A stretch of DNA of 64,000 nt. Origin: Anaerolineae bacterium. Lineage in GTDB: Bacteria; Chloroflexota; Anaerolineae; Aggregatilineales; Aggregatilineaceae. Positions 51,463 to 56,783 of this stretch are shown here, one piece after another. Numbering within the stretch: position 1 is the stretch's first letter; every line of letters starts with the position of its first letter. The notes beneath the pieces are model-generated. The model was not told the origin of the DNA, made no database searches, and saw only the letters and a list, made by a program, of their open reading frames with translations. The position numbers and the translations under genes are program-made. Location of the stretch: assembly GCA_016930015.1 (NCBI GenBank), contig JAFGHR010000025.1, forward strand, positions 1 to 64,000, read 5' to 3'.

Positions 51463-52251
51463 GTGAAGGACACCATGTTTCGACATAGTAATCGCGGCAC
51501 AATCGTCTGGTTGTTTATTGTGGGTGTTGCCCTTGGGCTGACATTGGTAACCGGTGATGTTCCAACATCAATTGGGGCCGGACTCCTTGCAGCCTACATG
51601 GCACTCGTCATCATGGTGGCGCGGAACGTGCAGCCAGGCGCTATTGTCAATTTATTCTCAAATTCGCGCGCACGCCCGGTCAAATCCACCGCGATCGCAC
51701 AAGAGGCTATCGCTAGAGCCCGCACCCATCCAACGTATGACGCGTTGATCCAACTGCTTGATATTGGCCTGGTGGTCGATGAACAGCGTCCGGACGGTTT
51801 ATCACTGCGCAGGGGGCGTTTCCTGTCACTGGACGATGACGGGATACGACCGTTTGCCATCATTCATGTATCCGAAACCCTGGGGCGCCGTGTGGCACGT
51901 ATCCGGTATGAAATTTGTGACGAAACTGGCCGGGCGCAGTACATTTTCGAAGACGAAAAATGGCTTGACCCAGGCGAAAACGCGCTGCTGCCCAATTACC
52001 GGTTCCCGATTCGGAAAAACACCACCGGCCTGCTGCCCGGCACATGGACTGTACATTGCTCGATCGATAGTGGGCTGCTGGGCATTCACAGTTTTAATCT
52101 GGGACCATCACTGCGCGAACAGCACCAGATGATGGCATCGGATGGTGAACTGCGCGAACGTGTGTGGCGTACCGAGAAAGAAGATACATCATTGCCCGTC
52201 AGCCTGGAAGAACTGCTTCGCCAGCAGAGCCGCCAGCGCTATCCGAACTGA
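51463..52251 (+). CDS. Membrane-anchored protein, N-terminal TM helices with C-terminal beta-rich domain (paralog A)
   Basis: Two hydrophobic N-terminal segments. The C-terminal ~150 aa align by eye with the next gene product. Confidence 0.75.
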   Translation: MKDTMFRHSNRGTIVWLFIVGVALGLTLVTGDVPTSIGAGLLAAYMALVIMVARNVQPGAIVNLFSNSRARPVKSTAIAQEAIARARTHPTYDALIQLLDIGLVVDEQRPDGLSLRRGRFLSLDDDGIRPFAIIHVSETLGRRVARIRYEICDETGRAQYIFEDEKWLDPGENALLPNYRFPIRKNTTGLLPGTWTVHCSIDSGLLGIHSFNLGPSLREQHQMMASDGELRERVWRTEKEDTSLPVSLEELLRQQSRQRYPN

Positions 52252-52267
52252 CCTCGAACGATACCTA

Positions 52268-52942
52268 ATGGACGCTGTCATATTTCTGGTTTTTATCGTG
52301 TTGTTTGTGGTATTCCTGTTCAGCCTGTCTTCAGTCGCTGAAGGGCGGAGCCGGTCTGCCACAACCTTTAGGCCCAACCTCCGCCACATGAGCCAGCGCG
52401 GGCCGCACATTACGCGAGCCGCTGCCGTCGCTATGCGACAAGCAGGTTACGAAAGCGGACCGGCGTATGTCCAGATCACCGATCTTGGGCTGCTGACATA
52501 TCGGAATCCCGAAGAGCCCAAGCTCGTGCGTTACGGGGACGTGATGATGGACACGCGTTTTTTGCGTCCATTTGTCGAGCTCTGGCTGCCATACGCCGCC
52601 ACCGGCATGGTCCGCCTTGAGATTCAGGACAGCGAAAAACGCATTCGGTACGCCGACGAAGCAGAATACGACCTGGAACAGGGCAAAAACATGGTCCTGC
52701 CAAACACATGGCTGCCGCTCGAAGGAAAATCAACGCTGTCCGATGACTGGACACTTCGTGTGCTTTCCAGTGATACCCTGCTGGCTCAACACCGGTTCGG
52801 CTGGCGGCGTGTTGGCGGGGGAGCCCTCCACCGTTATGTTGCAAATGACGGTGAGATCAGTCCGGAGCTGCGGCAGGCCGCGCAAGCCAGCGCCCGGCAG
52901 GCCGTCAGCCTGGACGAACTGTTATCGGATCAAGAAGAATAA
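52268..52942 (+). CDS. Membrane-anchored protein with the same C-terminal domain (paralog B)
   Basis: MDAVIFLVFIVLFVVFLFSLSSVAEG single TM. IRPF/LRPF, W(T)LR/VH, SLEELL/SLDELL correspond to paralog A. Start set at 52268. Confidence 0.75.
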   Translation: MDAVIFLVFIVLFVVFLFSLSSVAEGRSRSATTFRPNLRHMSQRGPHITRAAAVAMRQAGYESGPAYVQITDLGLLTYRNPEEPKLVRYGDVMMDTRFLRPFVELWLPYAATGMVRLEIQDSEKRIRYADEAEYDLEQGKNMVLPNTWLPLEGKSTLSDDWTLRVLSSDTLLAQHRFGWRRVGGGALHRYVANDGEISPELRQAAQASARQAVSLDELLSDQEE

Positions 52943-52996
52943 CGGCGATTTATCGGTATACTATTTTGGTACAGTCCACACAACGCGAATAACGGC

Positions 52997-53080
52997 TAAG
53001 GCTACACCATAAAAATCAATGCCCCGTCCCCGGCAAAGGACACACAAATGGGGGATTTATTTTCTTAGCTCAGCCTGACA
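52997..53080 (+). repeat. Intergenic element copy A (leader of the E2-JAB-E1 operon), possible structured RNA
   Basis: taaggctacaccataaaaatcaatgccccgtccccggcaaaggacacacaaatgggggatttattttc aligns with copy B at 55726. Confidence 0.7.
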
Positions 53081-53114
53081 TTCAAGGTGTTGGGTGTATT
53101 CAGGAGGAACTATC

Positions 53115-53594
53115 ATGAGCGACCATACCTGGTGGGGGACACCGCAGCGCGTATCTCCCCGGTTGCGGCTCGAAGTCGAGATGATGCGCGCGACTTTTGC
53201 CGATACATTCCGGCTGGTTGTGCCCAAACGCGATCTTCTTCACTGGATCGGGGATGTTGAGATCAACCTTGCAGGCATCAAAGAGCGCCTGCACACCGTG
53301 AAGATTCTGTATCCAAGCGAATACCCAAACCGCCCAGCCGAAGCGTATGTGCTCAATCCTAAAATCTACAGCGAAAAACACCAGTTTGAGGATGGGCAGC
53401 TTTGTTTGTTTAATCCCAAAGATGGCACCACGTATGGCTGGAATCCCAGCACATCCACCGCCGTCACCATCACCGGGTGGGCCGTCGAATGGTTATACTC
53501 GTATTACACGTGGCGTAAAACACATGTGTGGCCGGGGCAGGAAGAAAACATGCAACCTGTCAAAGACCGCAGGCGCGGCAGAAGGAGAAGGTAA
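53115..53594 (+). CDS. E2 ubiquitin-conjugating-enzyme-like protein (prokaryotic E2)
   Basis: 159 aa: LHTVKILYPSEYPNRPAEAYVLNPKIYSEKHQFEDGQLCLFNPKDGTTYGWNPSTSTAVTITGWAVEWLYSYYTWRKTHVWPG. Shows YPxxPP-like strand, G-x-L-C97-L catalytic Cys context, then W and C-terminal helices. Confidence 0.83.
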   Translation: MSDHTWWGTPQRVSPRLRLEVEMMRATFADTFRLVVPKRDLLHWIGDVEINLAGIKERLHTVKILYPSEYPNRPAEAYVLNPKIYSEKHQFEDGQLCLFNPKDGTTYGWNPSTSTAVTITGWAVEWLYSYYTWRKTHVWPGQEENMQPVKDRRRGRRRR

Positions 53595-54826
53595 TGAGCG
53601 AACACGCGTCGAACAACAGCCGTGACATTCCACAAGTCATCCTGGCTCAGCGAGTTGTTGATAAAATGGTGCGCGGTGCGCTGCTCTACCCGGACCCCGA
53701 AACCGGGGAAGCGTTGATCGGGTTGATCGTGCCACGCGGGGAAAATCAGGAACCGGATATTTACGTGCTCGATACCATTGGGCCGGGTGAAGACGCTGTC
53801 CGCGAATGGGGCATGTTCGAGCAGGGCAACGACTGGCAGGCTGATGTGTTTAACTGGCTGTACGCCAACTGGGAAACGTTCCGCGACCTGCGGCGCAGTT
53901 CATATGGGCGGGCGCTGGCGGCTAAATGGGATGTACCGCTCAGCCACGTAGGTGACTGGCACAAACAACCGGGTGACATGACCGCACCGTCTCCGGGTGA
54001 TGCGCAGACCGCGCGCCGCATGATCGGGGATTCCGAAACACCGGTCGAGCATATCGTAGCCCCGATCGTCACCCTGTATCCGCTGGCCGGTGAAACCGAA
54101 GCTGAACCGGATGCTGATGTTGATACGAACACCGACGTTGACACCGGTTCTGAGGAGTTATCCCCGGAGAAACAGCAACCGCTGGCGGCGGAATCTGAAC
54201 CCGAATCGTCTTCGCCAACCCCTGCCGAGTCCGAAGAAATCCAAGAATCCGGCGATAACGACGACGATAACGACGAGCCGGTCGCACAGAATGGCAGCAA
54301 AACCAACACATTGAGCGTGGCATTAACCGACGAAGGCTGGACCGTTCGTATCGATTTTTGGTACATGAGCAAACGTGTAAAACGTTTTGTGCCGGTCACA
54401 CCAGCGGTATGGCCTGACGACCGGCTGCCGGGCCTACCGCCGATCGCCTGGCACCTGGTGCACACGAAACGTTTTGAACAAGAACTCACGCTGCTGACTG
54501 ATGCAAAGTATATCGTGGATGTGGTGCAGTGGGATGCCGACGGCAAGCCCCCCTACGAAATCTGCTTTTCGGCCTACCATCCCGGCAGCAAACGCGTGAT
54601 CCTGCTGGTGACAACCGCAGACTACCCCAACGATATGCCGGCGGTAAGACTCGCGCCCCTGGTGCCCGTGACGGATGACGAGGACATGTTCAGCAAATTG
54701 TACGAGGCGTCTGAGTCGATCCTGTTAAGCCAGATGCCCGGCTGGCAGTGGGACTCCAAACGCACGCTGCTCGAATTGATCTGGCACGTTGAAGAAACCT
54801 TCAAAGAGAAAGTGGAGCCTTCATGA
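53594..54826 (+). CDS. JAMM/JAB-like domain protein with acidic linker and C-terminal E2/UEV-like domain
   Basis: ATG overlaps the E2 stop (taATG). PETGEALIGLI and HVGDWHKQPGDMTAPSPGD match JAMM E...H-x-[H>Q]-x7-S-x2-D. C-terminal YEICFSAYHPGSKRVILLVTTADYPNDMPAVRLAPLV...WQWDSKRTLLELIWHVEETF is E2-fold-like without Cys. Confidence 0.72.
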   Translation: MSEHASNNSRDIPQVILAQRVVDKMVRGALLYPDPETGEALIGLIVPRGENQEPDIYVLDTIGPGEDAVREWGMFEQGNDWQADVFNWLYANWETFRDLRRSSYGRALAAKWDVPLSHVGDWHKQPGDMTAPSPGDAQTARRMIGDSETPVEHIVAPIVTLYPLAGETEAEPDADVDTNTDVDTGSEELSPEKQQPLAAESEPESSSPTPAESEEIQESGDNDDDNDEPVAQNGSKTNTLSVALTDEGWTVRIDFWYMSKRVKRFVPVTPAVWPDDRLPGLPPIAWHLVHTKRFEQELTLLTDAKYIVDVVQWDADGKPPYEICFSAYHPGSKRVILLVTTADYPNDMPAVRLAPLVPVTDDEDMFSKLYEASESILLSQMPGWQWDSKRTLLELIWHVEETFKEKVEPS

Positions 54827-55719
54827 GCTGGCACCGGGTCGAGGAATTGTTAGGCAAAGATGTGTTGGCCCACCTCAAAACGCGAACCGTCGGCATCATT
54901 GGCCTTGGGTCCGGGGGAAGTTTTGCGGCAGTAAGTCTGGCCATGAGCGGCGTCGGGCGCTTCATCCTGATCGATGATGACGTTCTCGAACCGGCTAACG
55001 TCGTGCGGCATGCCGCCGATCTGCGTTACGTCGGGCGCCCGAAAGTAGACGCCGTTGCCGAACTCGTTCGTTACCGGAATCCCGAAGCTGACATCAAAAC
55101 GGTGATCGGACGCATCGAAAACCACCTCGATCTGCTCAGCAAAATGGATGTTGTTGTGGCTGGTGTCGATGGCGAAGCATCCAAGTTTGCCATCAACCAG
55201 GCCTGCATTGACCATCACGCACGCGTTGTATACGCGGGTGTTTACGAACGGGGCGAAGGCGGTGATGTGTGTGTCATCCAACCCGGCGCTGGCCCGTGTT
55301 ATGCGTGCTGGTCGGAACATTTGCGCGAAGGGATCAGCCAATCGCTGCCGGATGACGATACCGAATTAGACTATGGCATGATCGGCCCGGATGGCACCCT
55401 GGCGGCTGAGCCGGGACTCTGGCTGCATGTTGTGCGCATCGCGGCCACACAGGCCGATCTGACGCTTAACCTGCTGCTGGAAAACACCGACGGTCACCGG
55501 CCTGTTCCGGCGAATACCGTGGTGCTGGCCAATACACAATTAGAAATTTTCGAAGACCGGGTTTCGCTGCCATACACGGCAGAATGGGTTAATATACCGC
55601 GCAATCCAGACTGCCTGGTGTGCGGGCACCTGCACCGGCCACCTGATGACCAACCCGACGTTTCGTTGAACGACTTGATCAACTTAGGGCATGTTATCAA
55701 CGAATCCGACACTGACTGA
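54823..55719 (+). CDS. ThiF/E1-like ubiquitin-activating-type enzyme
   Basis: ATGA overlap with previous gene. VGIIGLGSGGSFAAVSLAMSGVGRFILIDDDVLEPANVVRHAADLRYVGRPKVDAVAELV; GGDVCVIQPGAGPCYACW and CLVCG zinc-knuckle pairs. Confidence 0.93.
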   Translation: MSWHRVEELLGKDVLAHLKTRTVGIIGLGSGGSFAAVSLAMSGVGRFILIDDDVLEPANVVRHAADLRYVGRPKVDAVAELVRYRNPEADIKTVIGRIENHLDLLSKMDVVVAGVDGEASKFAINQACIDHHARVVYAGVYERGEGGDVCVIQPGAGPCYACWSEHLREGISQSLPDDDTELDYGMIGPDGTLAAEPGLWLHVVRIAATQADLTLNLLLENTDGHRPVPANTVVLANTQLEIFEDRVSLPYTAEWVNIPRNPDCLVCGHLHRPPDDQPDVSLNDLINLGHVINESDTD

Positions 55720-55725
55720 TATTCG

Positions 55726-55810
55726 TAAGGCTACGCCAAAAAAATAATTACCCGATCCCTGGCAAGGGCAAACAAACGGGAGAGTTATTTTCCTGGTTTA
55801 ACCTAACCAA
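55726..55810 (+). repeat. Intergenic element copy B, possible structured RNA
   Basis: taaggctacgccaaaaaaataattacccgatccctggcaagggcaaacaaacgggagagttattttcc aligns with copy A at 52997. Confidence 0.7.
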
Positions 55811-55823
55811 AGAGGAAGCAACG

Positions 55824-56141
55824 ATGACTGATGAAAGGGTTCCCCCCGCCGACAACCAGATACCCGGTGAGCCGCCTGTGGTTGAACCGTCAGATGCCGA
55901 TACACCAGCCGCTCCCCCCGATGTGGATGCGCCGGATCACGCCGTGCCGGACGATTTAGGGCCGCGTCTTGAACGGTTGGGGGGCGAACCTGCACCGGAT
56001 ATTACACCGGAGGAATTCGCACGCCTTCAACAGGCAGGCCAAATCCATATCGATCCACGCGGGCGGGTGCGGACACCGGCCACCCCAACCAATATCGATG
56101 CCGGTATTTCGCTTCGCAAACGCCGGGCCTGGTATGCATAA
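55824..56141 (+). CDS. Small acidic, Pro-rich protein of unknown function (105 aa)
   Basis: agagg SD upstream. PDITPEEFARLQQAGQIHIDPRGRVRTPATPTNIDAGISLRKRRAWYA; largely disordered-looking. Confidence 0.65.
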   Translation: MTDERVPPADNQIPGEPPVVEPSDADTPAAPPDVDAPDHAVPDDLGPRLERLGGEPAPDITPEEFARLQQAGQIHIDPRGRVRTPATPTNIDAGISLRKRRAWYA

Positions 56142-56144
56142 CTT

Positions 56145-56783
56145 ATGCCGCTGATCGATCTCCAGCACGTTCGTGCAGCGCTGGCGCTCGAAAACTTTGA
56201 TGCCGTTGCAGCCCGGCGCCGCATGGCCCCGACGCCGCGCGCGTTCCAACGCAGCAGCGGCCAGACAGGTCAACCGCGCCAGGCAAGTGTGCTGATCTTG
56301 CTGTATCCCGCTGCAACCGGGTTGGACCTGGTGCTAACCCGGCGTACCGAAAACCCACATGATGTGCACAGCGGCCAGATCAGTTTGCCCGGCGGAGCGC
56401 AAGAACCGGGCGAAACACCGGTCCAGACGGCCCTGCGCGAAGCCCACGAGGAACTGGGTTTTCATGAACCGGTACAGGTAATCGGACAACTGGCCCCGCT
56501 GTACATTCCCCCCAGTGATTTTGAAGTCCACCCGGTTGTGGGCGCCATCACCACGCACCCGATCTGGCAGCCACAGGCATCAGAAGTAGCCGAAGTGCTG
56601 GAGTGCCCGGCAGCATGGCTGCTGGATGACAATCGTAAAGTGTTCGAAGACTGGGACTGGGGCGGTTACACACTGCATGTCCCCTGGTACAACTTCCACG
56701 CGCATCAGGTCTGGGGCGCAACAGCTATCATTCTAAGCGAATTTGAGCAGCGCCTGCGCCATATCTCTGACCGTAAACCTTGA
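56145..56783 (+). CDS. NUDIX hydrolase (CoA pyrophosphatase-like)
   Basis: Nudix box GAQEPGETPVQTALREAHEELGF fits GX5EX7REUXEEXGU; upstream LILLYPAATGLDLVLTRRTENPHDVHSGQISLPGG. Confidence 0.92.
   Translation: MPLIDLQHVRAALALENFDAVAARRRMAPTPRAFQRSSGQTGQPRQASVLILLYPAATGLDLVLTRRTENPHDVHSGQISLPGGAQEPGETPVQTALREAHEELGFHEPVQVIGQLAPLYIPPSDFEVHPVVGAITTHPIWQPQASEVAEVLECPAAWLLDDNRKVFEDWDWGGYTLHVPWYNFHAHQVWGATAIILSEFEQRLRHISDRKP

Follow-up and report, generated by a model that had tools for sequence, protein, structure and literature searches.

The window, the whole stretch of DNA that we analyzed, comprises 64,000 nucleotides from an Anaerolineae bacterium (GCA_016930015.1, contig JAFGHR010000025.1, positions 1 to 64,000 of the forward strand). 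The locus under study holds the following genes and elements.

51475–52251, + strand: membrane protein memA, a paralog of memB with two N-terminal hydrophobic segments (by hydropathy), a soluble C-terminal domain, and the motif SLEELL (52201–52218)
52268–52942, + strand: membrane protein memB, with one N-terminal hydrophobic segment and the C-terminal motif SLDELL (52907–52924)
52997–53080, + strand: dispersed hairpin repeat, copy 1 (the "leader"), which has about 20 copies in its own genome
53115–53594, + strand: E2 (UBC-like) conjugating enzyme with catalytic Cys97, assigned from PADLOC and UBE2L3 profile matches
53594–54826, + strand: JAB/MPN and RWD-like protein, assigned from an AlphaFold model, PDB fold matches, and motif counts
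54823–55719, + strand: E1-like adenylating enzyme of the ThiF/MoeB/MccB type, assigned from Pfam and MccB matches, with the C-terminal motif SLNDL (55663–55677)
55725–55805, + strand: dispersed hairpin repeat, copy 2, identified by repeat comparison
55824–56141, + strand: 105-aa small protein, a candidate conjugated protein, singled out by a phylogenetic profile like that of E2
56145–56783, + strand: NUDIX hydrolase, assigned from Pfam NUDIX (4e-13) and gene neighborhoods

The E2, JAB, and E1 genes form an operon spanning positions 53115 to 55719. As the initial annotation of this DNA had pointed out, they are coupled by overlaps, with a TAATG at 53592 to 53596 joining the first two genes and an ATGA at 54823 to 54826 joining the last two. 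The order E2–JAB–E1 is kept in 64 of the 65 loci with enough sequence. The proposal that the first gene encodes an E2-like protein with C97 is supported, for both the UBC fold and the catalytic cysteine, by matches to PADLOC E2 models (E = 4e-17), by matches of the family profile to eukaryotic UBE2L3 structures in the PDB (E ~ 2e-5), and by the invariance of H89 and C97 in 62 of 62 homologs.

In the AlphaFold model of the JAB protein (pTM 0.77), a JAB/MPN domain (approximately residues 10–165) is followed by a disordered linker and then by an RWD-like C-domain (approximately residues 284–405). Matches to PADLOC JAB models are weak (2e-7). The predicted structure matches CSN5, Rpn11, and BRCC36 in the PDB (E ~ 1e-5, probability 1.00), and the JAB fold proposed earlier for the N-domain of the 53594 product is thereby borne out. 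The accompanying description of the protein as JAMM-like had missed a change at the metal site. The JAMM residues are E39, H123, Q125, S133, and D136, and at position 125, the second zinc ligand (His2), 30 of the 35 aligned sequences, this one among them, have Gln and the other five His. This change may abolish protease activity.

The JAB C-domain has the alpha-beta4-alpha order and the YPxxxP motif of RWD/UEV folds and lacks a catalytic cysteine. We rejected the idea that it is a sequence-detectable E2, because an hhalign comparison with the family's own E2 gave a probability of 0 and a PDB profile search returned no relevant match. Given the fold order and the YPxxxP motif but no sequence-level match, the label "pseudo-E2" for this domain, and with it the JAB–pseudo-E2 fusion suggested initially, is plausible but not proven.

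The E1 is a single 298-aa ThiF domain (Pfam ThiF, 1e-33) whose zinc cysteines (Cys159, Cys162, Cys264, and Cys267) form two CxxC pairs that are invariant in 65 sequences. The earlier reading of a ThiF-type adenylating enzyme with paired CxxC knuckles is therefore sound, but it overlooked the absence of a transthiolation cysteine. No cysteine beyond the four zinc ligands is invariant in the 65 sequences, and the segment that aligns by eye with the MoeB loop cysteine reads LDYG. By profile, the closest PDB relative of this E1 is MccB (1e-18), an E1-like enzyme that adenylates a short peptide, MccA. We consider the identities of the E2, JAB, and E1 proteins to be highly probable.

The two upstream genes, initially described as encoding membrane-anchored paralogs, are indeed paralogous (29.5% identity over 166 aa, E = 1e-13), and both products bear N-terminal hydrophobic segments. 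The C-termini of memA and memB carry SL(D/E)(D/E)LL, and a similar motif is present in the otherwise variable C-terminal tail of E1. The pattern SL[DENSKQAT][DE]L occurs within the last 45 to 50 residues of 24 of 24 mem proteins, 55 of 67 E1 proteins, and 2 of 894 other ORFs of the loci, a count that is descriptive and no blind test, the motif having been spotted first and counted after. Among the 308 ORFs of the window, only memA, memB, and E1 have it. Because we found no homology between E1 and the mem proteins beyond this motif, the simplest reading is that they have one binding partner in common. UBA5 likewise recruits its own E2 via a C-terminal peptide. Judging from the motif common to E1, the membrane proteins appear to belong with the E2–JAB–E1 cassette, as the initial annotation had supposed. 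The mem genes lie upstream of E2 in 11 of 61 loci, and they must be accessory because many genomes do not have them beside E2. In several relatives (L160:6314-7090; also L021, L022, L023, L024, and L026), a third membrane protein, mem27, which lacks the C-terminal motif, is encoded between memB and E2; its place in the window holds only the dispersed repeat.

That repeat, described at first as a repeated leader element of the system, does exist at both positions but is not part of the system. It is a hairpin-forming intergenic element of about 80 nt with about 20 significant copies genome-wide, which are 74 to 84% alike. Since it has so many genomic copies, has no Rfam match, and was not found in the relatives' loci examined, we rejected it as an operon regulator.

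A scan of the collection yielded 73 loci, with labels that are mostly Anaerolineae or Chloroflexi. Orthologous E2 genes are present in 135 of 154 genomes of one Anaerolineae order, with one copy in 87 of the 90 good genomes, compared with 20 of 298 genomes across the class and 2 of 301 across the phylum. In families f3, f5, and f6 of the order, neither E2 nor JAB was found. There were no phage matches to the system, and plasmid matches were distant only (30% identical). One locus of the Anaerolineae type (L031) is titled Bacteroidetes and probably comes from a mislabeled genome bin. The cassette is a vertically inherited part of the core genome, unlike a defense island. Because it is vertical and present as one copy in nearly all good genomes of the order, it very probably has a housekeeping role rather than one in defense.

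The 105-aa protein encoded beside E1 was missed by the initial annotation. Its N-terminal half is disordered, acidic and proline-rich, and not conserved. The C-terminal half is among the most conserved stretches of the locus, with a mean majority identity of 0.84 over residues 46 to 104. The conserved part ends in SLRKRRAWY and is followed by an unconserved tail of 0 to approximately 30 aa. AlphaFold predicts a short helix and a hairpin with the rest disordered (pTM 0.28); we rejected the protein as a beta-grasp Ubl because this model, albeit of low confidence, shows no such fold.

The distribution of the small protein follows that of E2. The two are found in 48 and 47 of 61 relatives, respectively, and across the class, the 20 genomes out of 298 that encode one are precisely those that encode the other, with none elsewhere. 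Among 154 genomes of the order, 130 have both, 14 have neither, 5 have only E2, and 5 have only the small protein (Fisher p = 4e-12 for the 154 genomes, a value not corrected for phylogeny). The fact that two of the five genomes with only the small protein retain JAB sequence beside its gene suggests that draft fragmentation lies behind some of the discordance. For much of the pattern, the co-occurrence could stem from one joint gain and subsequent vertical inheritance. The small protein of G046, the genome with the greatest divergence, has lost its RLERLGG part and keeps KKRRAWY. Both E2 and the small protein are diverged there, and the NUDIX hydrolase likewise falls toward the bottom of its range; the codivergence may therefore be a lineage effect. 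Genomes in which the small gene is no longer linked to E1 still retain it, usually beside PCMT and NUDIX genes. The NUDIX hydrolase travels with the small-protein gene and is probably an accessory. In many genomes, a cluster of PCMT-like methyltransferase, NUDIX, and often PfkB-kinase genes adjoins the small gene, even far from the E2–E1 genes (L150, L153, L154, L158, L159, L163, L164, and L165). We judge it likely that the small protein is functionally tied to the pathway; that it is itself conjugated is possible but rather doubtful.

We found no conserved beta-grasp gene in the locus and operon neighborhoods examined. A ThiS-family search recovered at least two such proteins in each of 11 of 11 genomes tested, and the one copy whose neighborhood was typed (in G376, locus L168) adjoins a ThiF–rhodanese E1. 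We therefore do not take a ThiS/MoaD protein to be the obvious Ubl, an idea that a single copy with its own E1 neither excludes nor supports. Tagging for proteasomal degradation was also rejected as unlikely, because 10 of 12 carriers tested have no match to the 20S proteasome family (PF00227).

Function is inferred here from sequence, structure prediction, and distribution. The explanation that best fits the whole, to which we give an about even chance, is a chromosomal, vertically inherited, reversible housekeeping conjugation pathway of one Anaerolineae order for which the 105-aa protein is the likeliest partner. In such a pathway, the Cys-less E1 would adenylate the C-terminus of a small partner, and the activated carboxylate would then pass straight to Cys97 of E2 and thence to targets. 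MccB provides a precedent for an E1-like enzyme acting on a short peptide and supports the adenylation of a small partner. The JAB/RWD-like protein, with Gln as its second zinc ligand in most members, would process, remove, or merely read the mark. The C-terminal SL(D/E)(D/E)L peptide of E1 would dock a common component, which the membrane proteins could bring to the membrane by means of the same peptide.

The likeliest partner, the disordered 105-aa protein, would be used via its RRAWY C-terminus once the variable tail had been trimmed, possibly by JAB. Trimming at RRAWY would be needed because the last residue of the protein is not conserved, and it is the weakest step of the explanation, made doubtful by the His2-to-Gln change that may abolish the very protease activity it calls for. 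The invariance of RRAWY even in the most diverged copy counts for the small protein as the partner, and the position of the unlinked gene beside NUDIX and PCMT genes rather than E1 counts against it. The 105-aa protein is thus the leading modifier candidate, strong but unproven, and its conjugation, proposed on computational grounds, is a tentative suggestion. The complete scheme, in which the core E1 and E2 attach a disordered non-beta-grasp protein, the adenylate goes straight to E2, and membrane adaptors mimic the docking peptide of E1, is rather unlikely as a whole.

A conventional Ubl pathway, in which the beta-grasp modifier is encoded elsewhere (a ThiS/MoaD protein or an unrecognized one) and the 105-aa protein serves the pathway as a dedicated target, adaptor, or regulator, is the most serious alternative, with perhaps one chance in three. 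The ThiS-family proteins of every genome tested could supply the modifier, given that archaeal SAMPs are sulfur carriers able to double as modifiers, and the NUDIX and PCMT neighbors of the unlinked small gene also fit. Against it stand the ThiS-family gene of G376 with an E1 of its own and the operon neighborhoods devoid of beta-grasp genes.

All three proteins match PADLOC E2, JAB, and E1 models, and related bacterial cassettes are defensive; nevertheless, we find an antiphage system of the Bil or CBASS type improbable. The framing of the locus as antiphage defense is disfavored by its core, vertical rather than patchy distribution and by the lack of a CD-NTase, effector, or Ubl, and the CBASS-like E2s of the order (in G053 and G376) are separate and very divergent. 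Least probable of all is peptide tailoring, in which the E1-like enzyme would adenylate the small protein, in the way that MccB adenylates MccA, to give a modified peptide and no protein conjugate, for although the kinship with MccB, the missing transthiolation cysteine, and the PCMT-like methyltransferases whose genes adjoin that of the small protein in many genomes fit that picture, an E2 with an invariant cysteine and a JAB/RWD-like protein accompany E1 in all but one of the 65 loci, no transporter is a constant neighbor, and the C-terminal half of the small protein is nearly invariant, unlike the core of a peptide product.

As the initial annotation had noted, the layout matches neither CBASS nor Bil, there being no CD-NTase and no Ubl in the locus. 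Type II CBASS, with Cap2 and Cap3, likewise combines an E2, a ThiF-type E1, and a JAB protein, and there Cap2 conjugates cGAS, which is not a beta-grasp protein, by its C-terminus, the last residue being a conserved Gly/Ala (PMC10097602); this is a precedent for an E1/E2/JAB set that attaches a protein outside the beta-grasp fold. However, no CD-NTase was seen among the locus proteins scanned and the conserved neighbor families, E1 and E2 are separate genes here rather than an E2–E1 fusion, Cap2 has a predicted catalytic C513 whereas our E1 has no transthiolation cysteine, and the cassette is a vertical core gene set and not an island. The Bil systems (BilABCD) resemble the locus in that a single operon contains E2, JAB, and E1 as separate genes, but a BilA-type Ubl gene is absent from the locus here, and BilD has an inactive adenylation domain and a Cys domain (PMC11354881), unlike the single adenylation domain of this E1. 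The prokaryotic operons of Iyer, Burroughs, and Aravind, classes 6a to 6f, also group E1, E2, and JAB and include inactive E2/RWD-like domains, but, by their descriptions, not a JAB–RWD-like fusion, a small disordered protein, or membrane proteins with a docking motif (PMC1779556). Pup resembles the candidate modifier, which is likewise small and disordered, and differs in that the present operon encodes ubiquitin-type enzymes, no proteasome was found in most of the carriers tested, and the candidate has no Pup-type C-terminus.

Short E2 genes also occur beside CD-NTase-like nucleotidyltransferases with no E1 or JAB visible (L175:3700-6739, L176:6528-9555, and also L170, L171, L173, and L174). 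Some of these CBASS-like loci have a possible SAVED-type effector, the families having been read by eye, and two of them come from genomes in which the window's system is present too.

Rare other Chloroflexota harbor cousin loci (L172:3194-8026, L180:3792-14717, and L181:2727-11670) with an E2, an E1 without the loop cysteine, a JAB protein with an RWD-like C-terminal part, and membrane association. Unlike the window's system, they are sporadic, their E1 has an N-terminal extension, their JAMM motif keeps HxH, and their membrane partners are RWD-like, vWA, and TPR proteins; neither the small protein nor a Ubl was found in these three loci. Given the traits in common, the window's system appears to be a pared-down core form of a Chloroflexota family associated with the membrane.

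We found no description of the locus in the literature searched, which did not include Burroughs et al. 2011. What is new within the E1/E2/JAB kind is a chromosomal core cassette, a Cys-less E1, an altered JAB, a docking motif common to E1 and the membrane proteins, and a candidate partner. To our knowledge, the characterized bacterial E1/E2/JAB systems are mobile antiphage systems. A vertical cassette present throughout an order suggests that conjugation of the ubiquitin type can belong to the everyday physiology of bacteria. The locus also offers a short docking motif and a candidate modifier that does not have the ubiquitin fold, and it bears on the origin of E1/E2/JAB cascades before eukaryotes.
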